Of a stretch of 64,000 nt of DNA, positions 9,509 through 64,000 are shown piece after piece. The position numbers and the translations under genes are program-made. Below the pieces are notes generated by a model. The model was not told the origin of the DNA, ran no database searches, and worked only from the letters and a program-made list of their open reading frames with translations. Position 1 is the stretch's first letter. The number at the start of each line of letters is the position of its first letter. Source of the stretch: Parapristionchus giblindavisi (lineage: Eukaryota; Nematoda; Chromadorea; Rhabditida; Diplogasteridae); the NCBI GenBank assembly GCA_943737045.1, contig CALSFV010000017.1, positions 248,001 through 312,000 of the forward strand, read 5' to 3'.

Positions 9509-10438
9509 ATGATTGTTATGATCAGTTTGTGTGTTATTCTCCTTGTTATTCAAGCGTTTATCGCTATTCAGTCTCATTCCTTCTCCGTATATATAAGAAG
9601 CGGTAGCAGTATTCTTCTCTTCATATTCTTGTTACCACGTATGTCATCCTTTTATTTTGATAACTCACAAATGATATGTATATTGTTCCGATCATTCGAG
9701 CCAATTAGAATTTGACTAATTAAAGATGTCAGCGCGGTTCTGGAGGAAGTCAACGCGGTAAGGGAGGACAATCTACTCAATCCAAGGGTGGTAAAGGAGG
9801 ACAAGGCAAAGGGTGTAAAGATGGTAAAACCACTCAGAGCCACTTTGCATTAGGTCAGTTATTTCCTATTTTTTTAAAATTTTTCTCTTCGAATTTTATG
9901 ACGATGTCAGCGTTAAACGAACCGAAACCTTTGTCAACGGCCTCTTCAACGGCCTACGCTCTTTCGTTGTTAGAGAACAGAGAAATAGTGTGCGCAATGA
10001 AGAGGCCAGTGAGAGAGGTCACTCCCCCTTTAAAGCGAAAGAAAATATGAAACTTAAGTTTATCAAAAGAGTCTTAATTTCTTAGCCACATAAGGGGCCA
10101 TTTCGTATATTCACGCAGGAAAACTCGGCGAAATGATGTGCCAGAGCGGTTAAACGATTAATCTATTTTTCCAAAAAGAGTGGTTAATTTATTAATCAAA
10201 ATGAGGAGGAAGATAATTTATTAAGCGCACCAAAATATTGTACTATAATATAATGAGGGTATCAATCTGTAGCAGTTTATATGTATCTGCGAGATGATTG
10301 TTATTTCATTATTCCAGACATCGTCGATGAGAAGCCAATCTACGGTAATGGCTAGTTTATATGCATTTGATTAACGATTAGTATTTCATATTTTCAGATA
10401 TCGATGATAATGGCTACGATGGCTACGGTAATGGCTAA
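9509..10438 (+). CDS. Small secreted Gly-rich peptide precursor
   Basis: Four exons (9509-9555, 9726-9853, 10318-10344, 10398-10438) join in frame to 80 residues. Residues 1-16 form a signal peptide (MIVMISLCVILLVIQA) whose likely cleavage lies at QA/C. The mature part is basic and Gly/Gln/Ser-rich (CQRGSGGSQRGKGGQ..., two Cys) and ends in an acidic Tyr/Gly tail, DIDDNGYDGYGNG. The layout resembles nematode secreted Gly-rich or YGG-type peptides, some of which are antimicrobial; the function here is inference. Exon 2 uses an AAG acceptor. Skipping the third donor would end the protein in YGNG as well, so two similar ends are possible. Exon model made by hand. Confidence 0.6.
9918..10036. mobile_element. 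MITE family alpha, copy 1
   Basis: About 115 bp with imperfect inverted ends, sharing the core TTGTTAGAGAACAGAGAAAT and GCGCAATGAAGAG with copies at 49645-49753 and 58596-58712. It lies in the second intron of the Gly-rich peptide gene. Confidence 0.7.
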
Positions 10439-47539: not shown

Positions 47540-50500
47540 TTAAGACGTTTCTTGGTTAGTCAATTGATTTAATTGTTCATCTAAATTTGGCTTGTCCATT
47601 TCTGTCTCCAGTTCTTCCTGGTCTCCCGCAACTTTCTCCTAAATAGAAAATACTTTTAAGCTCGTATTATAGAAACAAGATCTATAATATTGGCTGTTTT
47701 AGTCACAAAAAAAATCGAGAAAGTTATACCGTTTGAAATAATCAGGATACTTTTGATAGATACTGTATTTATAAAGCGCAAAAAATACAATATTCATGTT
47801 CTGCCAAACAAACAAAATATCAGCTTGATTTAAGATGACATAGTGTTCTTTACCTCTTGTATAGGTACATAACGTTGAGGTCCAAATGGAACACCATAGT
47901 AGCCCAATCCGGTTGCTCTACTCATGAAATCTGATGAAAAGAGAATGTGATATGATAATCATAAAACTTTTTGAATACATCAATAAATTGAGTCAGAACT
48001 AAAGCTTTATGAAAGAAATGTAAACAAATAACATTTTAAGACCTATAATGAAGTTTAAAATAATTTTAAAAAAATAACCTTCATTAATGATATTTGACAT
48101 ATCCGTGTTCTTCTTGATCTGCTTTGCGACCTAAAACGTATTTAATTTCCTGGACATGATTTGAAAATGTGTACATAACATTACTGAAGACAAATGCGTC
48201 CAAATTCTAGCAATCCAATTCTTCTAAATGAGAATACGAGCTTATGAAATGCCTCCATTAGGATCGCATAATTTGGATTTCATTTGACGAAAGTAGGCAG
48301 ATCTCATGTTTGTAAGTTTCGCTTTTTACGAGCGAGAAACGTCGGATAACCAACAGTTCAATAAACACAAAATCAATAGTCAATCAAAGAGGAGAAATAG
48401 CACGTTGATAACAATCAAGAGAAAGGAAACAATATCTTTTCTCTTGAATATTTTTTCTAGCAGCTCACGCATATCTTTTCCTACTGAAATCTTACGAAAC
48501 TGTTCGGATGAGACCATTTCTAGCTCGCAAACAGTTTCTTACTTTCTGTTTTCTCTAAAATACGTTAATATATTTATAATATTTTTATTATATATAGTTT
48601 CGCACTTTTGGATTGCTCAATTTCCTCGGGGCCGGTGGAACGATGTTTTCTCTATCTCTATCTCCAACAAACATTAATTGCTGACAAGCATGATAACTAA
48701 TATATTATTTTCATATACAGTTCTCTCCATCAACAGAATGTCCCCTTCTCATGCAGCAGATAAAAATTCTAAAGCAACGCACCTCAACGTAGTATTCATC
48801 CAAACTTGTTGTTAATGGTGTGGTGAGGTCGAGCTCTTTGCAAGCTCTCAACGCTTCCATTGGAGTTGCGTATTTTGTTTCATTCCCATTTATTGAGAAT
48901 CCTGTAATTGTCTCTTCAAGAAGTATATTCAGAGATGACTCCTGGCCGCCGTACTGAAAAAGGTGCATTCGATTTGTTCGCCGTGATTGATTCAACGAAA
49001 CCAAACTAAGTTGGGCCAATAAAACTAGTTAGAAAAAGTCGATGTAGACAGCGGAGTTGTATAAAACATGTTACGAACGCAAATGAACAATTTTTATTGC
49101 AATTTTTACTATGAGTAACTGCGCTCAATTTCATCATTGCAAATAAAAGTAGAACACCATAAAATGCTTTTCTATTTGTTTTTTTACGAATCATGAAATT
49201 AGACACATTTTCATGAGATCGTGAAAGTGAGACTAACGAAAAAAGTCGTGAAATCATGAATCGCGAAAACATCTCAAGCTGTACCTACCCTGGCAACATA
49301 TTTTCTGTTGTCATGTTGTGTTGTAAGTACAATTGTTACTCCTTTAAAATCTTTGTACTTTATTTTTCCGTTATCACGTTGTTCGTTGAAATAGTCATTA
49401 ATTATTGCAGCAGTGGCTTGGTACGTAATAAAGTTGTTTATTTTTTTATTGGGAATTAATTCTCCAAGTAGATACGGACTTGCAGTTCGCGATACCAATT
49501 TGTCAATTTGACGTTCTCCCACAGATCTTATTACAGCCAGCTTCTCCTCCGATTGTTTGTCAAATCTCTGAAGAGGTATGATCATCAGACATGTTTCGCA
49601 GACAGCAAAAAAACCGATTTTCGATGATTCATTATTTTTTGCTTTAAAGGGAGCGTTACCTCACTCTTCATTGTGCACACTATTTTTCTGTTCTCTAACA
49701 ACGAGAGAGCATTGGGCGTCGAAGAGACCATTGATTGAGGTCACGCCCCTTTGAAGCGCGTTGTAGAAATGCAGCCGCTCATTTTTGTGCAACAACATGA
49801 TAGATCTCACTTATGCAAACACCAAGATTCCCGCCGTGCTCTATAATTACTCCAAAGCTAATTGTAAGCCATCTTGATAATATAGTTATGTTTTAGACAT
49901 TTTTCGTTATATCATGAAAGAGAAATTTCACGAAATACCTCGTTGCGAATCGTTAAAAACATTCTAATGATTGTCATTGATTGATTCGAAAATGTCAAGT
50001 GCAAAACGAGTTTGGAAAGAATATTTGTGGAATTGAATTAATTATTTAAAAAAAATGTATTAGCACACTTACTTTTTGAACCTCATAGTCCTTCTTAATG
50101 TGTTTAAATTTGAATTCTTCTTCTTTGTCCATACTCGTTATGCTTACAGACTTCGTTTTATCGAAGATAAGGCAGATAACTTTACTGCTGATGAATTTCA
50201 TCACAGGATGCACGACTATATTTAAAACTTTGGGCGTTAGATGATTCTTAAGTTTCTTTTTTAGATGCTCCATGACTTCGTTCATGAAGCTTTGAGCTTC
50301 TGTGTCGTCTTTAAATGGATCAATCTCCTCCTCTTTCGTTGTGTCCTTGATTTCATCCGCTGAGGCACTCGCATCTTTGACATATTCTAATGGATCACCC
50401 TCCTTCATTTTCGTCGTCGTTTTGTCTTTAGATTCATCTACGGCGGAAGTCGTCGCTATTTTGCCTTTATTAGATGAATCAATCTCATTGACTTTCGTCG

Positions 50501-53500
50501 TCTTTGTGCCCTTGGATAGATCTGCAGAAGTACTCGCTTCTTTCACTTTTTCTGATGGATCACTCTCCTTCGTTTTCGTCGCCGCTATGTCCTTAGGTTC
50601 ATATAGGGAGGGACTCGTCGCTTCTTTGATGATAAAATAATTATTATAATTTATCGATTCTTGAACAAGATTCTCTTCAGTTTTATTTGGCGTAATTTTG
50701 CTGTCCACCAACATTAGGAACCTTGCACTTATCGTTTCGGAATTGTAAAGTTGCTCAGCATCTTTGGTAAATTCACGAAGTGTTTGGAGGCTACTAAATA
50801 TTTTCAATGCCGTAGTAGCATCTACGGGATCTCGTGAGGTACGAATAGTGTACTCTTTGAGTACATTACCAGCTTGAGTGAGCGCTCTTTTATACATTCG
50901 CCTTACAATTCCCTCAATTTCACCAAGAGCGATATCAGACTCATTCTCGATCTTTTTTCTTGCATCTACATCGTTTCCCAGTTCTTTGTATAATTTCCCT
51001 ATTGATATCCTCGTACTTTCGCCAGCAGCGAAACCTTTAGAAAGGTCTAGTTTCACACCTATTACCGCCGCTTTGCACACCTCATTTACTTTAGTCATCA
51101 GCAGCTGAAAATGTATATCATACCCATATTAAGTTTTAGCTATTATGTTCTAGGAAATTTTATATCTAGTTTCCAATCGTTGAGGTATCCAACAGAGCTA
51201 CCGATGGTTATTAACGTCATGAATCGACTAACAATAAATTCAGTCAAATCTTGCACAGTCAAAAAGTCATATGTATTTTGTAAATTGGAGTTCTCAAGGT
51301 GCTGATGATCGTCTTTCCTCTACAGTGGTGGGTCAACATTCTATGTGCAAAAAGAATATGAACATCGTCATCAGCACCCTTGAGAACCTTGAACCGAACA
51401 TTTGATTTTTGACTGTGCCGGAATTTAGTCGAGTCTTACGCGAACAACCTCATATATTCTTACCATTTTGATCTGCTCCGTGGTTGAACTATTGGTAGCG
51501 GCTGTTATCGTTTGTGCGGATATTGTTTTGAAGATATTGTCTAATTTTGTGCACAACTCAACATGCCTGTTGTTGCCACTAGCCAAACCTTGCTGTAAAA
51601 ACGTTATAGCCAAAGAAATGAAAAAGGTTTTAGGGTTTTTTTCTTCTCGTACAGTTGAAAAAAAAACAAAATGCTGCATTTAGTGGAACTGTAATATAAA
51701 TATTGGCAAATTTTTTCGCCTTGATATCGATCATTTAGTAATTTAGTAAGTAATTAAAAAATCGTACATTAATTCCTCCGGCGGATAATTTTCCAGTCAA
51801 TTTAGATCCGATCGTCGACATTTGCTTCTTTGGAGACGAAATGGACGATAAACCCACTGTAACAAGTGAGGAAACCGTGATAGCGAGCTGAAAAAAGAGC
51901 AAACATAATAAGTAACTGAGTGTAATATTTGCATGGCATCGTCGCAATGTTTAACTAAATCATTTTTGGAATGTACATGGCTTGTTGGTTCTCAAATTGA
52001 AAGAATTGAAAAAACAATACTTCACAAAGTTGCAGAATTCATTGATAAATATTGGATGGTACAATATTGTCTACCCATCCACTGCACGCACACGTCGACA
52101 AATAGAATTGAAAAAAAAGCTTATGAAGAACAAAGAAAATCAAAAATCAAAAACAATCAAATCAAAAGATATTGTTGTTATCTCTCTAGCTCGTCTTCAT
52201 CTAGTTATTCTGTGAAACAGTGAAAGTTTGTGATAATGCGAAAGCGAAAAAAAATTGCAACACTTTAACAAAAACATTTCTACCGAACATCGAGTCCCAC
52301 CTTGTATTTGGAGTATTCCTTCCAGGAGCAATCATAAGTGAACCGACAATTAACCATGGACATCATCTTTGACATACCTAAAAAAACAGAAATAAAAGTT
52401 ACTCCTATTTTTTTGTGTAAAGGACAACCATTTTCATAAACTATTAAATTGCTCTCAAAACTGTTAAATTTATTCTACAAAAAAAGTTTTTCCTAAATTT
52501 TAGATATGGGTCGCTCTGAATTCCATGAAAGTAGGACCGGCGATAAGATCCTTCCCATTGATTTTGATTTTCATATTGATACTCACATTTATAGGCCCAA
52601 GCTAACTTAACTCTCCTCATTGGCAATACTCTCTCGTAGATAAAGAAAGCGAGGGAGTGTGGCCAGAGCGGAGAGTTTTTTTATAGCTTGGGGTGTTGCT
52701 TTAATATTGTTAAAGGCTTAAAACGTAAAGTTTTAAATGGATCATTTACATGTTTACTATAAAATGGCTAATTCTAAAATAATTGAAATATACTATGAGT
52801 AATTTGAAAATTTATAAAATGGTGAAGTTACCAACCTTCCCGAGTCAAAAAGTTGTTTACACCAGCACCAGTTCCAACGAAAAAGAAGTTAACCAGTGCA
52901 CCAGCCACTGCTTGCAAAACATCCATAGATAATACATTTGCCATACGTATCCAATATTTATCGCTCCACTTTTCTTCGCGTGGCACAATTATCCTTGATA
53001 ATCCGTTCATCGCGAAAACGGACTTTTCTACAGAGGAAACTTTGTTTTCCCCTTCAGTTTTGTCGTTGAGTGTCTTAAAGAGTTTTAGGGTTTAATTGTG
53101 TGTAATCAACGAATATCATATGCATTTGTGTAAGGTACAGAATGAGTTGCAAGAGACACCCCTAAACACCCTATCGAGAAAAATGTTCGTGAAGAAAAAA
53201 CAAGAAAAAAAGTTTTCGGATATACTTCTTAAAGAATTAAAGTGGCATACCGCGTATTCGATATTGGGTGAATCTTGAGCGAGATGTCCGCTTGTGATAT
53301 TTTGAATATTATTATTCATCCATCTCAGGTTTTCTGGCGTAAAGATCATGCTAGCATTACGCACTTTCATCGGCATATTTTTGAATGCACCTACTAAATC
53401 GTCAGTGTAATCAATGACAGATTTGACCCTTCTCCCTGGTAGGATATCTTCTGCTACTAGTTCATTCAGTAGCTCTAAATGAGGATTTGCTTTGAGTCGA

Positions 53501-56500
53501 AGGACGTACTTTTCCAGCGCAGTATTGCCAGCAATTTTCTCTTCATCTGTTATTTCATTTTTACGTTTTGTTCTTCTGTCGTAAGTGTTTTTAAGTTCCA
53601 CATATGCTAATTGATTCATAAATTGTACAGTCAAAATGGCCTCAATGATGGGTGCGTAAATAGGCTTAACCATTGTAAGTAGCTCATTAAAATCATATTT
53701 CATTAATTTATATCGATATTCGCCATGTATTTCTATTCGTTTAAAATATTGGCCATCTACCATCGTTTTCAGGAATTGATCGATAAATCTATCGCCTAGT
53801 TTGAAAGCTTTCAAGTTGTTCACAGTAAGCGATTCTTCGCTGACATAACTATCGTTCCCTAAGGTTTTCTCATTGACTCTACTCTTTTCAAAGAGATGGA
53901 TAACCTTGTACTTCTTTAAGAACTCGATCAATTCATTGTCCATTTTGTCAACGAGTAGTTTATCGCACACAATTTTGCTATCGTCGAATAACAGCTCATC
54001 AAAAGATATATAAGGCAAATCAAAGTAAACATCTTGGTCAGTGAAATCCTCGAATGAAATAATTTTACAATCAATAAACATATGCTCATTCAACGTCATG
54101 CCCGGATTTTCGAATTCAAATGATTCGTTCAATTCCTGCAAGTACTTTAGATCAATAGTATAATATTGTGTTGGTTCTCCAATGACATGTTTAAGAACAA
54201 GCTCCTGCCAAAAATCTTTTCCATTTCGAGATACGAAAGTCGAGTTGGTATTTCCAGAATCAATCCAAGTACCATAAGAGAATATATTTTGCAATTTATT
54301 TCGTAAAGAGTAATCTCCGTCTGTAAAGAGTTCTTCGCGCTTAGCTGAGTACTCCTTCAGAAGGTCAAATAGATTTGGAATTCCGTATTTTCGACCAACA
54401 TAATCGCATTCGTTCTTGAGAGACACGAGTCTATTTCGGTCTATTTCAAAATCATCGGAAATTTTCCCCTCTTCCTGAAAATATTCAAGAATAATATGTG
54501 CAACAGGCTCTGTCATGTTTCCGGCCATAATCACGTCTTCCGAAATCCGAGATCCTATCAAAGCGTTGATTGAATTAATAAATACTCCGTACATTGCTAT
54601 ATTAGAGAGCTGCTGATCGTGGAATGCTTCCACATGAAATATTTTTAAATTTGTCCGCTTTATTTCCAATTTATCAATGATTATTTTTGCATATGTATGA
54701 CGGAATATCCGATCATTGAAACCTCGACGCGCTCGAATCAAATATTCTATTAACTTCTTACACTCTGCATTTACTGCACTGTTGAAGCTTTGACCAGAAT
54801 CTCTAATTTGATGGATTAAATACCCGGACATATAGTAATATACTTCAGGAGCTAAATGAGGACAATTTTTGAGAATATTTTCGAGCTGTTCTTTGGCTTT
54901 TTCCCTTTTGCCTGATATTTCAAGATTCGATACGGCCAAAAGAAGCTGTCGCCCGGGATTCGTTACTACGTCGCTCAATTCTTTGTAAATATTTTCAAAT
55001 TCTTTAAATTCAGATTCCAATTTGGCAATTCTATCTCTCTTCTCATATTCCATGTTAACTATGAATTCAGTTCGTTCGTCCAACCAAAGTGCCCAATTGT
55101 CAATCATGGAATTGATATAAATGTCTGCCAAGCTTTCAGCATACACTAGTTTTCCGTCCTTCTTTAGAGTCTTCAATATATTGTGCTTAACTTTGAAAAA
55201 ATCCACGAATTTTTGGTAAATTTTTTCCTCGATGAGTAATTTTTCATTATAATTTTTCACAACTTTTGCAATGCGGTTCTCCTCTCTAAAATCGCGATCG
55301 TTTTTCAATTGTACAATACTGCGTGGTTCTTTTTTGTAAGCAATTATTTGTCCACTTCCAACCTCTCCTTTTCGAGCAGCTCTGCCGTATGCCTGCAGCA
55401 GACGTAATTAATAGGCAATATCATTGACAAAAATGCATCGCGAGGCACAGTCAGTCGAAATGGATCAACAAGCCAAGATGGAAATGGATCAACCCAGTCA
55501 CGAAACATCCACTAAAGCTGATTAAGTAGATTTAATGTCAACGCCAATGACAAGGGCTCCAAAATATTCATTCGAAGCGTTAATGATGTGCGCAAATGTA
55601 TATAGAGGTCAATGGCAGGACCTTTTCCAAATATTAAGCAACAAAGAAAACTAGTTTTTGTCTTATTCTAACAATAAGATTGGCAATTTCGCATATTGAA
55701 ATTCCGCATATGCAATTCTAGTTTTGGAGTTTTGTGGAAACGAGAAAGCGATAAATTCACCTAAAATTGCTACTCACCTGATCTTCAATTCTGCAATTCT
55801 CAGGAATAAATGCGACAATCACATGAAGCCCTCCATTGTCTAATACTTTTCTATCCAGTTTCAAGTCCATTCCACGACCAGCAAGGTTTGTTGCGATGAT
55901 CAACTGTTTCGGGGGCAAAGCGCCCTTTACTGCTATTTTTTCATGCTCACGCATGAAAATATGCAAATGTTCATATTGTTTTTCGATCAAATTTTCCTTA
56001 TCAAATCCCATTTTCAACATTTTTACACTGGCAACACTTTCAGCGACAATTAAAACAGATCTTTCGGCCATGAGCACCTTATTTGCCTCTTCACGAATCG
56101 TTGACATCCATTTGTCTGCGTTATCCAAAATAAACGATTCATACTCTTCAAATTGACTTGGCTTGAAGGGGCAAATTTTAACGACATCACATGCGTACAG
56201 TGTTTTTAGCATATGAGCCTCGGCTTCCCTTCCCAACGTACCGGTGAACCCATACAGTTTTCTATTTTCTTCGCCTATCATATATGTTATGTTGGATATG
56301 TAAACTGCCTTGAGACTCATCATGGTAAATTTGCAACCATGTTTGAGTTGAATAAACTGATGTAATCCCTCATGCCATTGAGCGGTGGGTTGATCCGCCC
56401 CAGTTCCCTTGTCGATTATTACTACTCTATGGTAAAGATCTGTTGAATTATCCGACCTGAACAAATATAGGCGTTATTATATATGCGTTATTATTATATT

Positions 56501-59500
56501 ACTATTAAAGCTGTTGAAACAATGTTTAAATGTCTATTGTAGATGTAAGTCTATGATTTTCAAGATCATCAAATTGTATACTCAAAATTTAATTGTTATT
56601 GCATACCGATCAACATCCAGAATATAATCGTTCCCTTCTTCCATTTCCAGCGCCATCTTTGCGTTATCGATAAGCTTAGTAAGATGAGCATCGATGAATT
56701 TATGTAGAAACTCCGGACAATCAATGCATCGAGTGCGATTGAATTCTGTTTCGAAACCAAATCTAATCAATTCTTTCGTTTCTTCATCAATTTCAGTTTC
56801 ATCCAAGCTGTTGATTATTTCTAAGCCTTTTTCGAAATCCTTCAAAATCCGACAATCTTCTCCAATCAATCCTTTATTAAATAATAATTTATGAACATCT
56901 TCTGTCCAGTTATCTTTTAGAAGCATTCCATGAATATCTCGAATTACCGAATCTCGAATTCGTTTTGTTGAAAAAGTCTGGATAGAAAAGAGAATAAATT
57001 AGTGTTGGAGCAAGTGATAAAATATTTTAAAATAGGGTTGACTATAGCGCACTATTCATTGCAGGCCCGCAAGGCCCGCAATGATTTTACAACGCACTGC
57101 GGGCCCCATCACTAGCAATAGAGAGTCAAGGTCATTGCGGGCCCGCAACCCCGAATAGCCATCTCTATTTTAAAACACATGAACCTCTTTAACGGAGACT
57201 TCATCCACAGGCATATTGACTTCTTTCCAAATGAAAATAAAAAGAGTTAAAAGTCTATCCATTAACGAAATGTTGTGTGACAGATACAACGTGTTATTAC
57301 CATTGTCTAACATCATAGAATCCACCTGAAATACATACAGATTTAGTTGAATTCATTTCGTATTATATAAGAATAAATTATAATAAATATATGTAGGCAG
57401 AAGATATTTTATATAGGCCAGATGAAATAATTTTCAATGATGGTACAATATCACGCCAGTCACGAGAGAATTGAGCTCAGAGTGGGAATGAAGCAAAATC
57501 GTGAAATGAGTTAGGACCATTTTTGGACATCTCTAGGCATGCCCTACCAGCCCCCAAAGTCTCATTGTGCAATTTTCATTTTGGGGCTCAATACACCGGT
57601 TCGGTAAGGTGAAGTCCCAACTTTGAGCACGAATTTCTCGCTTCTGGTGCGTTTAAGCGAAAAAGTGTCACAAGAGTGACCCCCGCTCTTTTTTCGAGCT
57701 CTATCGATCTAAACAAATCAGAGATCATGAAAATGTCTCTGAACAGAGCTACACTTCGAAGCAAATAACTCAAAAATTTAGGAAAAGGAGGTGCCCTTCT
57801 TCCAGTATGTTATTAAGTTTTTTAATGCGCTTTCGAATGAGTGGCTTGCGAAAAAAATACGTTAATGCGTTCGTATGGTTCATCAGCTTGCAAATTTTCT
57901 GATGATTTGAAATCATTTTCGCCACTCCACAATCTCTCGTTTCGCACACTCTCTCGCCGGAGAGTGAAAGAAATGCAGGGAAGAAAAAGGAAGAAAACGA
58001 TATGTTTCATTCCGCATCGTGCGCTCGAGACCGTGCGGTGCAGAATGGAATGGAATGGAATGAAAAGGAAGGGGCGAGAGAGTGTGTGAAATGAGAGATT
58101 GTGGGTGGCGAAAATGACTTCAAATCATCAGAAAATTTCCAAGGGGATGAACCATACGAACGCATTAACGTATTTTTTTCGCAAGCCACTCATTCGAAAG
58201 CGCATGAAAAACTTAATAACATACTGGAAGAAGAGCACCTCCTTTTCCTAAATTTTTGAGTTATTTGCTTCGAAGTATAGCTCTGTTCAAAGACATTTTC
58301 ATGATCTCTGATTTGTTTAGATCGATAGAGCTCGAAAAAAGAGCGGGGGTTACCCTCGCGATAGTTTTTCACAGAAATGCACCTGAACCGAGATATTTGA
58401 GTTCAAAGTTGGGACTTCGCCTTACCGAACCGGTGTATTGAGCCCCAAAATGAAAATGAGACTTTGGGGGCTGGTAGGGCATGCCTAAAGATGTCCAAAA
58501 AGGGTCCTAACTCATTTCACGATTTTCGCTCCATTCCGAAGAATAGCCATTTTGGCTCAATTCTCTCGTGACTGGCGTGATATAACAGTTACGTAAAGGG
58601 AGCGTTACCTTTCTCAATGGTCTCTTCATTGCGCACACTATTTCTCTGTTCTCTAACAACGAGTGAGCGTAGAGCGTTGAAGAGACCATTGAGAGAGGTT
58701 ACGCTCCCTTTAACAAAATATTGTAAAAATTTCGGCAAAATTAGAACAATTGAGAATTTCCGATTGTTTAATATAAATTAAAATTACTGAAACCTCATCT
58801 ATGATAAGATTTTGGACATCTCGTTTAATGAATCCTTCTTCCTCATAAAATTGACCGAGCAGGTAATCACGCTGGAAACTACTTAAGTCTCCGTAAATTA
58901 CTTGATTATTCCGATAAACATCCGCTCTTTTTACTTGATCATGTTCGATAATGTGTGACACCTGAAAGTGAATAGAGGGGTAAAGGGGATAGTCTAAAAC
59001 CAATCAAAAGCATCGTGATGTAAAACAGTTTTAGAGCACTACACCCACCAATTTCCTGGAAATTTTACATGATATTTGATGTACTTCTTATATAATCCTT
59101 AAAAAATAATACCTTGATGTCGAAAAAATTGAAAATAAACACACTGTCCTCGTCGGTTGCATCTCTCTTAGCGAGAACCGAATTGCTTGTTATGATGTCA
59201 ACCTGAAAAAAATGTCAGCATGAGTACAGGAACAAGGTAAAGGAAACGAAGTTACAATAATTTACAAATTCTGAATATATTTTTATATGAGGTCAACTTT
59301 TTTTCGGCTACCTGCAGAAACGAACATATTATAATATATTCGGCTTCGAATCGAAAATTCCACTTTTTTACATTAGGGTGACATGCAGATCAGTATAGGT
59401 TATGGTAGACACTCACATGTTTTATTAAAAGGTCACGGGTTCAAAAGGTAGGCACGGCAAAAATTTTTTGCTGTCTTGTCCCATACGAAAATTTTGTCCA

Positions 59501-62500
59501 TTTGTGGTTTAACGATGTTGAAAGAAAAAAAGAAACAAAAGAAATTGAATCGAGATATTGCAGAATAAACGATTTTCAAAAACATTTTCTGCTCTATCTT
59601 CGATAGGACGAGTTGGAGGCGCTAACTATAAACGGACGGAGAAATTATCCTGGTTTGGTATGAGAGGGTGAGGTTCTTCTTTTCGCCTTGCAGATATTGC
59701 GAAGGAGAGCAACTTTCATGAGACCAGCTTAAAATCGTAGTTCTGGTTAGCAGATAGGATACAACAGTTTTCAAGAACATTATGCATATTATATTTTATA
59801 ATAAGAAGGAAATATAAAAAATGACTACAAAGTTTGAAAGACAATCTAATTTATCACCACATTTTTTAAAATTATTTTAGAGAAATTAGCAGTAAAACGT
59901 TCAAAGGATGATTTTCGTTTCACTTTTTATATAATGGTGATCTTTATACTTTATATATAGTCTCTTATATCGATTCTGTCTCACCTTCTCACCCATGAAG
60001 TGTTTCATGATAGCGATTGCAACTATGATAAATGATTTACCCTCTCCCGTCGCAACCTGAAATTTCAATACGCAATAATACGCAATAATATTCAATATTT
60101 ACATTTAAATGTAAATATTAAACAATGACTCGAATTTAATCATTATTAGCGCATCATGGGTCAGAACTAACAATAAGACCGGTCAGATAAAAATGACCAT
60201 ACAATCTTTTTTATTAGGTTTCCCATAATTTCTTTGGTAAAGGGATCGAAAAAAAACAGAAAAATAATTTCCGGAAAACATTTTTCGCAAAATTTTCCAC
60301 CTTGTTTGGCGCATGAAAATTAGCTTGAACAATAGCATAATTCAATCTGAATCTCTCCTTACGCCCCGAACGTAATCAGGTTATTTACCTGCGAGAGTAA
60401 ATTTTTCTTGTTAAGAACAGTCAGCATTATTGAAATATTCTGCGTTCCTCTCAGATAAAATTTTTTCTTTAAATGAACAACTTCGTTGATTATTTGCAAC
60501 AGTGCTATTTTATATTGTATGTTCTCTGAATTAAAGTTTTGCTTATTGTCTTCTAGTTTCTTGATTATTTTTTCCCGAATTTCCTTAGTGTTTTCTATCT
60601 TTTTAATCTTCAGATCCTTCAGAATAATGTTGTCCTCTAGTTTTGTCATCCACACGTCTATTTCATGAGGAAAACATTTCTCCAACAGTTTCACAGTTTC
60701 TGGGTCAATCGAAGGCAGTTCGCACGTCTCCCCAGCATTATGTTTCTGTGTCTTTATATGTTTAAGGATGAACCGAACTGTTCGTTCGCTCATATCTAAG
60801 TTGAGTATTTCCGCGTTCTTTTGCATTATGCGCACGTCTCCGGCAACGCATGCTTTACCGTACTCCTCGATCATCTTTATTAGCTCTTCATTAGCCTCAA
60901 TTTCTCGTTTAGATATACGATAAAGCAGCGATTGGATAACCTTTGTATCTACAGAACCATTCCACTCATAGAGTGCTAATAACAACCTAGCTACATAGTC
61001 TTCGTTTTTAAAGGCTTCAATTTGTGCCAAATACGACACAGAGTTTTTCGTCATTTTTGATGCATTATCCTCACCATTACAGATCTGCGCTTCAAATTCG
61101 TAATCGCACACTCCTTTTTTCCACTCATTGATTGGGCGATCTTGCACTGCTTTTATAGATTGTGGATATTTTGACAACCTTTTCACAATATCTCCAAAGT
61201 CTTTTTCATTAATAGTCACTGAATCGCTTTCGAGTAATTTTTGCAGAAGAATCAGAGCACTGTTGCATGATACGGGAAGATCCAGTTTAATAGGGGCGAT
61301 AGCTTTACCGATGAAATTTTCACATATTGCAGTAGCTAGAACGATAAATAGTTTGCTCCGATCATGGGCAAATTCGATTATCATATGGGCGAAATATCCA
61401 AGATGCGTACCACCCCGTGCAATACTCGAGGCTATAGCATGGCAAATAACAATGAGCTCGTGATTTGTTATGCTCCATCCATACTTTGTAAGAATTCGAA
61501 TCGCACGTATCGCTTCATTTCCTGTGTAATCGTCGCCGATCAAATGTAACGCATGATTGAGCTCCTTGTTTGTTTCACCCACTTTCTCACAAATTGCTGC
61601 TATCGAATCTTCGACGCACTCATCTCTTACGTCTCGCTCCTCACTGAATGCCTTTCTCAGACTTCCAATATTCGATTCCGATATTTTTCGTCGTGCCTGT
61701 TCCATGTCGAAATAATTTATATTTAGTTCGAGTTCTCCTTTCATTCCTGTTTCATTAATCAAAATTCGTATATCAGAACGTCCGTTTTTATTATGTATCT
61801 GAAAATTGAAGCATGACATGTGAAATACGATTATTGTTTGTGTATATTATGTGATTATTCCGAAAATATGTTTTATATAATCTAGTATACTTTTCATGAA
61901 AAAAATATACCTGAAGAAGTTGATAAGGTTTAGTAAAGCTAACGTATACGTATATTTTCACGTCATGTGCTGCAGCGACCAACTCTCGAATCATTGGAGA
62001 TTTTGAGAAATAGTTCTCTTCTACTTCTACAAAACGTTCAATCCATTTCTCACAAACTTCGTATAACTTCAACCATTCATGTTCAGGTCGCCAGAGGATG
62101 GAGCCTGTAAAAAGATAGAGCCCAATACGAGCGAAATAATGTTCGTAGCAATTCACAGAATATCGGCGAGAAAAAGCGAGCGTGACATGGGAATTGTTTT
62201 CCAGATTTTTCTCTTTTGAATATTCGAGAGATTTAAAATGTTGATCAGCATGGAACACATATCTCAAGAACTCTAGGGATTGGGAGGCAATGAAACCATT
62301 GAAGGCACTAACTCTGGTAATTTCAAACTAGTCGTTCACTTATATTTCCCACTAGCCGTAGACTTGCAAGTCTACGGCTAGTTAAACATAAGTTTACTAA
62401 AAGTGGTGTATAATACGGTAATGCATTTCGTCAAACGTTCTTTCACTTGTAGTGAACTAGCAGTAAACCACTTGTCTGTGACGTAACGTAAGTAAACTAC

Positions 62501-64000
62501 TAGTTTGGAGTACCAGAGAAGGACATCAACTCTTATTTCTCATTCATTACTTTGACGATATTGTAATCAATGATGGGTGGAAACTGGCCATGCACGGCAT
62601 ATATAGCATGAATCAATTCGTATCTGCAGCTATCATGTCAGAGCTGAAAGGTATTAAGGCCTTTTCTCGCGACTCGATTAAGCACGAAACCGACGAAAAC
62701 GATTCTGAAAGGGACCCACATGGGCAGTTAGGGCAGTTGAAGTGAAATACTTGGGATTTGACAATGAAGTGGGGGTGGGGTGTGACTCATAGGGATAACA
62801 GGATAAAGATAGATTCATGAGAAACAGTGTGACTTTCCAATCGTCTTTGAAATGGACATTGTGAAGAGGTAAAGTATAAAAATATTCTTTTTCAAAAAGT
62901 TTCAGAGAGTTGGTATCATTTGGATGGAGGATTGAAAAAGTAGCACGGACAAATAGGTGGAGATACAGCGTTTACTGAATTCCTGTGATAAGAAAATCGA
63001 GGTCACGATATAGTTTTCATTCGCAGCTAGAAGATATTGATAAGTTTCCCATTGGAATATTCGCGCAACACTTCATACGTAAAAGAATTACATCCTAACC
63101 TTGATCGATTTGGCAATCGTCCATAAGACACGCCTGCACCTCGTTAAAAATTTGATTTTCAGTTTTCAATGTTGCACGTGCAAAAGCATTGCACATTGGT
63201 TCACTGATGTGCTTGAGATCTGAGTTTCCGCCATCCTCAGCTAAATTATTTAGAAGCATTTCACGCAAAATGAAGTACCGCAGATGTTTCACTGTCTTCC
63301 TCGCCGTTTCTACAGATAAAATGGCTTGTTGTACTACTTGTCGAAATTCCGACTTATTCGAGTTTGCTTTATAAATTTGCTTCCATTCGAGTTTTTTATA
63401 CCCAGAATAGTATTTTTCGATGAAGTAAAGCTTTTGAAATCGGGTCACAGCTGATTTAGTAAGCTTAACCTTCGCTTTATTACTGTCTTCCAAATTCAAA
63501 CTGTCCAAAAAATCACGCAAGAAGAGCAACTCCTCATCAGTACATAACATCGCTCGTAATCTCCGAAATAGATCTACGAGCCATTTTCTATTCCCAATGT
63601 TGTCAATTATTTCGAAGTAAATTTCTGACTTGCCCTTTCTCAAATATAAAAATATAGTTTCGTCGAATTCGTATTGCTTGTCGTCTTGTAAAATAAATTT
63701 GATCTTTCCACGTAACTTTTCCACTTCCTCAATTTCGTTATTAACTGTTTTCTCATCGATGATACTTTTAGTAATCTCATCCACGATTTTAACGTTGTCG
63801 ATTTCAATTGCAATATCGAGTTGCCTTGATAACGTCTTATTACGTTGAGTTGCAAATTTTGATCTGTCGTTGTCAATATCCTTTAAAAGGTCAACCAAAA
63901 CCTTCAGAGAACTCTGAAAAAATCGTTCAGATATCGTACATGTAAAAATCATTGTATCATGAACGGTGTGAATGGGTCTGAACGGATCAGGCCGATCAAG
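47540..64000 (-). CDS. Giant SecA-type motor ATPase protein, intron-rich (5' end outside window)
   Basis: Twenty exons, 5' to 3': 64000-63100, 62104-61911, 61798-60389, 60056-59985, 59202-59113, 58961-58794, 57325-57185, 56977-56607, 56456-55778, 55392-53251, 53073-52836, 52377-52301, 51887-51768, 51592-51464, 51104-50073, 49567-49289, 48953-48783, 48130-48079, 47930-47854, 47638-47540. All join in frame (2,813 residues, open at the right edge). Helical N-terminus to about 835; then SecA motor: QVATGEGKS (Walker A, ~836-843), SNSVLAKRDA, LIIDEVDSMM (Walker B, ~942-947), WHEGLHQFIQLKHG, GFTGTLGREAE, IIATNLAGRGMDLKLD (~1302-1317) and YGRAARKGE (~1344-1352). Bacterial SecA drives preproteins through SecYEG; no animal partner is known to me. 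The C-terminal ~1,450 residues are unrecognised, with hydrophobic stretches near 2100-2130 and 2162-2180 and a repeated acidic linker near 2400-2530. All motor motifs look intact. Horizontal origin with later intron gain is my inference. Confidence 0.85.
49645..49753. mobile_element. MITE family alpha, copy in an intron of the SecA-like gene
   Basis: AAAGGGAGCGTTACC at one end and GGTCACGCCCCTTT at the other, with core TGTTCTCTAACAACGAGAG. It is the same family as 9918-10036 and 58596-58712. Confidence 0.75.
50300..50590 (-). repeat. Tandem ~27-residue repeats within the SecA-like protein
   Basis: Three to four coding units of about 81-84 bp, each with the pattern TKxxExDPxE.VK.AS.SAD..K, lie within the exon 51104-50073. 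They form a charged, probably disordered linker. The units have diverged, so the expansion is not very recent. Confidence 0.7.
52586..52712. mobile_element. MITE family beta, copy in an intron of the SecA-like gene
   Basis: CCAAGCTAACTTAACTCTCC ... GGCCAGAGCGGAGAGTTT ... AGCTTGGGGTGTTGC: imperfect inverted ends matching the copies at 25.3, 29.4 and 30.3 kb. Confidence 0.65.
57055..57160. mobile_element. GC-rich hairpin (MITE-like) in an intron of the SecA-like gene
   Basis: CATTGCAGGCCCGCAAGGCC near the left end and TCATTGCGGGCCCGCAA near the right end form inverted, GC-rich ends around TGCGGGCCCC. The composition contrasts sharply with the AT-rich intron. Confidence 0.55.
57449..58582. mobile_element. 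1.1 kb palindrome in an intron of the SecA-like gene
   Basis: Ends ATATCACGCCAGTCACGAGA and its complement; arms of about 540 bp are inverted copies up to a short centre near 58017 containing a few GGAAT-like units. It splits the exons ending in the DEVD box (58794) and beginning with VDSMM (57325). Mirrored frames inside are not genes. Confidence 0.8.
58596..58712. mobile_element. MITE family alpha, copy next to the 1.1 kb palindrome
   Basis: AAAGGGAGCGTTACCTTTCT and AGAGAGGTTACGCTCCCTTT are near-perfect inverted ends. It is the best preserved of the three copies. Confidence 0.8.
62345..62518. mobile_element. MITE family gamma, diverged copy in intron 1 of the SecA-like gene model
   Basis: Core GTGGTGTATAATACGGTAAT, CATTTCGTCAAACGTTCTTT and end GAGTACCAGAG match 33217-33424 and 13545-13690. 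An extra local hairpin (CCGTAGACTTGCAAGTCTACGG) sits at the left end. Confidence 0.65.

Follow-up and report, generated by a model that had tools for sequence, protein, structure and literature searches.

An intron-bearing SecA-like gene on the minus strand

The stretch analyzed here (the window) comprises 64,000 nucleotides from the nematode Parapristionchus giblindavisi (contig CALSFV010000017.1, positions 248,001 to 312,000). On its minus strand (the original prediction named no strand), at 63913-48783, we found an intact-looking, intron-bearing gene that encodes a complete SecA-type two-domain ATPase, keeps the constrained residues of this motor and is collinear with nematode and rotifer relatives. 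Hand splicing guided by homology yielded 17 exons. The original prediction of a giant gene was borne out, with at least 2,690 codons and a 5' end outside the window, past 64000; its claim of an unbroken frame also held, with no stop in the spliced codons, but over 17 modelled exons and not 20. The gene model was built from an automatic first model followed by frame-by-frame reading. GT-AG sites and phase compatibility of the exon joins were chosen during modelling. The sequence TTTCAG stands at 9 of the 17 splice acceptors, which fits a nematode gene but is no proof of one.

The first exon of the part seen (63100..63913) lies N-terminal to the motor. It is followed by exon 2 (61911..62104), placed by the gene model and covered by 10 of 288 blastp segments, and by exon 3 (60389..61798), which holds the pre-motor region and the Q motif RGTQ. 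Walker A (ATGEGKS) is found in exon 4 (59985..60056), motif Ia (TSNSVLAKRD) in exon 5 (59113..59202) and the start of the intron-split motif II (DEVD) in exon 6 (58794..58961), whose unspliced frame matches SecA_DEAD at 3.5e-4, below the curated cut-off. Exon 7 (57185..57325) carries VDSMMLDNGNNTLYLSH, and exon 8 (56607..56977) covers the preprotein cross-linking domain region. The second ATPase domain, with WHEGLHQ, GFTGTLG and motif V (ATNLAGRGMD), falls in exon 9 (55778..56426; P-loop_SecA 6.4e-8, PDB SecA 3jux 3.4e-16). Exon 10 (53251..55392), recognized by homology and modelled with AlphaFold2, contributes motif VI (QAYGRAARKG), a long helix and a mostly helical region. The SecA blocks from RGTQ to QAYGRAARKG were thus recovered in the correct order, in agreement with the original prediction. 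A hydrophobic, membrane-like segment was placed in exon 11 (52863..53073) by gene model and hydropathy, and exons 12 (52301..52377), 13 (51768..51887) and 14 (51464..51592), like exons 3-5 and 7, were placed by homology together with the gene model.

Each of exons 2-14 (13 of 17) is covered by at least 10 of the 288 blastp segments. The C-terminal exon 15 (50073..51104), which includes a low-complexity stretch, is covered by one and has weak domain scores, while exons 1, 16 and 17 are covered by none. Exon 16 (49289..49567) shows weak similarity by tblastn (E 0.014 and 0.031), and exon 17 (48783..48953), the last modelled, shows hardly any homology, reached only where two weak domain matches end. 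A profile built from 134 N-terminal regions of the family matched spliced residues 44-755, exons 1-3 jointly, at 81 bits (bias 46), whereas a phmmer search with spliced residues 1-400 alone gave no match at E 10; exon 1 is therefore supported mainly by its 271-codon open frame. No homology was found for the stop-terminated stretch 47638-47541, which lies near 47540, the border first proposed.

Two repeats reside in the intron that separates exon 6 from exon 7: a foldback inverted-repeat element of about 1 kb at 57495..58526, with long arms about 92-97% complementary, and a short palindromic element resembling a miniature inverted-repeat transposable element (MITE) at about 58581..58725. The palindromic element occurs three times in the window; when the copies were compared, this one was delimited at 58594-58712, and the others lie at 49645-49752, again in an intron of the gene, and at 9912-10032. 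None of the 17 exons overlaps sequences repeated in the window; resident repeats in an intron-bearing gene, as originally described, were recovered in the introns. Elsewhere in the window, a codon score trained on the SecA-like gene was passed by two short segments only within 1-47000, a score that differently composed genes may escape. No tRNA genes or Rfam families were found in the window.

The motor is of SecA type

In Pfam, the spliced motor matched SecA_DEAD (6.3e-22), P-loop_SecA (1.2e-11) and SecA_PP_bind (8.5e-7), whereas generic DEAD scored 1.8e-6; the SecA_PP_bind (PF01043) match spans profile positions 57-109 of 110, about half. This comparison, which had been proposed as a check, sustains the original view that the motor belongs with SecA and not with another helicase family. 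The top eight NCBIfam matches were all SecA or SecA2 (best 2e-50), with an RNA helicase ninth at 0.03, and all 24 PDB sequences matched at 0.001 were SecA or SecA2. Using a relative from Acrobeloides as tblastn query, the segment over exons 8-9 gave E 3.6e-68 and the following segment, over exons 10-11, gave 9e-39; with these values and the SecA profile at 2e-50, the similarity is not due to chance. On the basis of these comparisons the motor is assigned as a SecA-type, two-domain ATPase. The domain PF07516, which we take to be the SecA wing/scaffold domain, was not matched when the spliced motor was searched against Pfam.

To place the motor structurally, we relied on a predicted model of a metagenome relative (P0015; 39% identity, query coverage 94%). 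Residues 68-817 of this model align with the SecA fold, including the clamp, and the alignment reaches into the wing/scaffold region. Alignment with the SecA chain 6itc_A covers 616 residues, compared with about 350 for DEAD-box chains, and thus extends beyond the helicase core. This extent, together with the higher scores of SecA profiles over helicase profiles, argues against a SecA-derived ATPase that acts on RNA or DNA, which we regard as improbable. A DEAD-box RNA helicase was rejected because SecA models outscore DEAD-box models in Pfam and NCBIfam, and a chance match or another helicase was ruled out by the Pfam, NCBIfam, PDB and fold comparisons together.

Conservation within the motor was assessed at 84 near-invariant columns derived from 69 relatives. 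The window keeps 81 of these, despite motor identity of only about 40% to its nearest relatives. The original statement that the ATPase residues are kept, implying selection, stands for 81 of the 84 constrained positions; one of the three changes, in motif V, replaces by M a T that is identical in all 69 relatives. Constraint on the motor residues is supported by this comparison.

The gene belongs to a family of giant animal SecA-like proteins

Protein searches of 5.8 billion proteins returned 445, 784 and 384 matches, the best 120 of each being listed. Among the matches listed were nematode relatives from Acrobeloides, Plectus, Halicephalobus, Panagrolaimus, Panagrellus, Diploscapter, Pristionchus, Nippostrongylus, Heligmosomoides, Ancylostoma and Necator, rotifer relatives from Rotaria, Adineta and Didymodactylos, and others from Daphnia, Artemia, many insects, a spider, Wolbachia and Rickettsiales. 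The closest proteins listed reach about 41-43% motor identity at best. Before and after the motor alike, the window gene shares homologous, collinear sequence with the family (exons 2-14); for the Acrobeloides protein (P0007, 3,639 residues) the collinear alignment spans window residues 399-2362, with 28% identity. By this similarity the gene is a member of a giant animal SecA-like family that has already been published. The available part of a 2013 paper (PMC3639933) describes a clade of eukaryotic giant secA genes that is distinct from bacterial secA and has members in Culex, Aedes, Harpegnathos and Daphnia and in Wolbachia (wBol1_1091/1092), and argues for transfer of secA from eukaryote to Wolbachia. 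With that clade on record in the part available, and with many animal-named relatives found here, SecA in an animal is not as unexpected as originally supposed. Among the hits listed in our literature searches (in one case 12 of 158), there was no paper on nematode SecA genes, and the main text of a 2026 compendium of horizontal gene transfer does not mention SecA.

We then considered where the window copy came from. All trees were quick trees with support from the Shimodaira-Hasegawa approximate likelihood-ratio test (SH-aLRT). One selection left out four of 120 proteins as partial motors. The 94-row tree included 69 of 120 proteins; four frames, one each from loci L023 and L028 and two from L024, were skipped by length, and frames scoring 40 bits or less were dropped, L025 among them. 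The 67- and 53-row trees used hand-chosen subsets of proteins and loci. In all three trees the window motor fell within a clade of nematodes and rotifers (SH-aLRT 100), which in the 94-row tree also held metagenome proteins. Outside this clade were 2 of 24 nematode rows (Plectus) and 2 of 10 rotifer rows in the 67-row tree, and 1 of 14 nematode and 1 of 6 rotifer rows in the 53-row tree; Plectus and Rotaria were among the rows so placed. The four classical-type SecA rows formed one side of a branch with support 100 in the 53-row tree, with the window elsewhere. Within the clade, nematode and rotifer rows intermix, so genes have been duplicated or passed between animals, in one direction or the other.

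It had originally been proposed that the gene was captured from an arthropod endosymbiont. Direct capture of this kind by the present lineage could draw on the listed Wolbachia copies, with lengths of 3,438-3,952 residues and 34-35% identity to the window. However, Wolbachia copies were placed among arthropod ones in the 67- and 53-row trees, and the window was not with them. Forcing the window together with arthropod and Wolbachia rows cost 42 log units (approximately unbiased test, p-AU 0.025), although the free tree also divides these groups for other reasons; forcing it together with endosymbiont rows cost 48 units (p-AU 0.005), a test that is likewise unclean because the groups were already split. 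The window gene also has introns. Since the window lies in the nematode/rotifer clade, the data lend no support to direct capture from an arthropod endosymbiont, and we give it very little credence. The copy would instead have come down by inheritance inside the nematode/rotifer group of animals, or by transfer from one of them to another.

A hydrophobic segment downstream of the motor

The motor ends at residue 1509 of the spliced protein, and the hydrophobic segment of exon 11 occupies residues 2065-2083, with a mean hydropathy of 1.69 over 19 residues. A hydrophobic segment 450-700 residues past the motor was found in 136 of 156 family members, the window among them.

Proposed function and its alternatives

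Overall, we take the product to be, most likely, a SecA-type ATPase that threads polypeptides and is tethered to a membrane. As in SecA, an unfolded polypeptide would be gripped between the ATPase domains and the clamp of the cross-linking domain and moved by ATP hydrolysis. The protein would not serve a bacterial SecYEG; the hydrophobic segment that follows its motor would instead anchor it to a host membrane, where it may unfold or move client proteins, or else its C-terminal part. For its role our favored guess is conflict with microbes or symbionts, because relatives occur in Wolbachia, Rickettsiales and other intracellular bacteria. That the gene belongs to the giant animal family and encodes such a membrane-held, polypeptide-moving ATPase, inherited or passed within the nematode/rotifer group, is the reading we lean toward, at somewhat better than even odds.

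Several observations weigh against it. At the place downstream of the motor the hydrophobic segment is present in 15 of 24 nematode and 5 of 7 rotifer members, as against 115 of 124 others, and 11 of the 20 members (out of 156) in which it is absent are nematode or rotifer. The window protein passes the same hydropathy cut at residues 486, 1874 and 2492 as well, and hydropathy by itself does not establish a membrane segment. The fold is taken from P0015 and not from the window protein. For the P0015 model, 6itc_A lies within 1 Z of free SecA structures, which amounts to a tie; the top Foldseek match is an open, free SecA, and the remaining SecY-bound structures rank lower (Z 29.2, 27.6 and 24.8), though 602-613 residues align, so that the likeness of this model to substrate-engaged SecA is weak. 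The AlphaFold2 model of window exon 10 is poorer (mean predicted local distance difference test score, pLDDT, 69), with no Foldseek matches at E of 0.001 or less and 317 at E of 10 or less; we take its long helix for the SecA helical scaffold. The best NCBIfam score, 171.6 bits, is far under the SecA equivalog cut-off of 862, which makes the motor a distant SecA relative and not a classical SecA. To these are added the motif V substitution, three weak GTT splice donors and a window branch that is the longest, or among the longest, of its clade (1.2-1.4), owing to which the position of the window inside the clade is unsure.

The long branch and the weak donors would also suit a decaying pseudogene or assembly artefact that is intact only in appearance. 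We consider this highly improbable in view of the 2,690 open codons in 17 phase-fitting exons, the 81 of 84 constrained residues retained and the confinement of the window's repeats to non-exon sequence.

A second possibility, which we hold to be doubtful but worth entertaining, is a domesticated symbiont effector: a host-directed effector of intracellular bacteria, captured early by animals and now turned against microbes or symbionts, whose motor would export or unfold the variable C-terminal domain of the same protein. Giant open frames that code for relatives do occur in Rickettsia, Orientia, Amoebophilaceae, Legionellales, Megaera and Bandiella. In the parts of the sources available, SecA is listed among the eukaryotic-like domains of the phage WO eukaryotic association module (PMC5062602), Amoebophilus effectors include SecA-like domains (PMC3482391), and such domains occur in giant actinobacterial toxins (PMC8195603). 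The transfer argued in 2013 runs the other way, from eukaryote to bacteria, in the portion available (PMC3639933). Three listed relatives (P0012, P0123 and P0056) carry precomputed PF14441 or PF13930. We take these to be deaminase and nuclease families. The added domains vary between members, however, and the Acrobeloides protein is without a toxin domain; in the window, no Pfam domain other than SecA ones was found in the 10 of 17 exons that were scanned singly, nor in spliced exons 11-17. As a separate observation, three SecA-like giants of Plectus and Adineta (P0167, P0169 and P0205) share precomputed PF00635, common to nematode and rotifer, which is presumably the motile sperm, or major sperm protein (MSP), domain.

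Returning to the membrane-held ATPase, a bolder form of it would make the protein a self-contained animal translocation machine, with a SecA-type motor and a membrane-inserting segment in one giant polypeptide and no SecYEG. If this were true, the predicted SecA clamp of the relative and the positionally conserved hydrophobic segment would follow, but we think it rather unlikely. The nematode count for the segment and the tie in the substrate-engaged fit lowered our confidence in both forms. The window gene is ordinary as a family member, and its interest lies in the family's unexplained function: a bacterial protein-translocating motor that nematodes (hookworms among them), rotifers, insects and crustaceans have retained, constrained residues included, is a neglected puzzle. 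Testable handles are offered by the predicted SecA clamp and by the hydrophobic segment, which most members carry at a comparable distance.

Comparison with known systems

An anti-phage defense system was considered and rejected, as PADLOC gave marginal, partial matches only (P0015 to PD-T4-6 at 6.7e-4 and Cas3g at 0.0098; P0007 to BrxD at 0.0096). In PHROGs a single family of unknown function, phrog_32805, was matched by P0015 (4.6e-39) and P0128 (5e-40). P0015 had matches in 22 phage and 128 plasmid records, none over more than 80% of its length.

With bacterial SecA of E. coli and B. subtilis the window protein shares the ATPase motifs and part of the cross-linking domain, and the fold predicted for its relative P0015 is likewise that of SecA. 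It differs in its identity of about 25%, its length (at least 2,690 residues, compared with 901 in E. coli) and its extra hydrophobic segment. The zinc motif CxCxSG of bacterial SecA is absent from the 2,690 window residues seen, the 3' end of the gene not being fixed. We know of no SecYEG in animals.

The endosymbiont giants of Rickettsia, Orientia, Amoebophilaceae and Megaera likewise carry the motor in giant open frames. Unlike the window gene, these frames are uninterrupted, and they fall mostly on a branch separate from the animal proteins (support 85-94); the exceptions are L002 and L003, which adjoin animals (one is from Legionellales), and, in the 94-row tree, L020 and L022, which lie outside both groups. 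On a plasmid of Candidatus Megaera, an endosymbiont from a Euplotes culture (CP113870.1), two giant SecA-like genes stand side by side, one of them 15.7 kb long.

Closer to the window is the eukaryotic giant secA clade, which in the available part of its description (PMC3639933) has the same combination of a SecA motor in a very long animal protein, apart from bacterial SecA. The window copy differs in belonging to a nematode/rotifer branch and in being split by introns; the SecA text in that part names no nematode and deems most annotated introns spurious, whereas the window gene bears introns. The Acrobeloides nanus protein (P0007; A0A914D..., named Chloroplast protein-transporting ATPase in UniRef) is collinear with the window over most of the length seen. 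Its motor is about 41-42% identical, with 28% identity over the whole alignment and a divergent C-terminal part.

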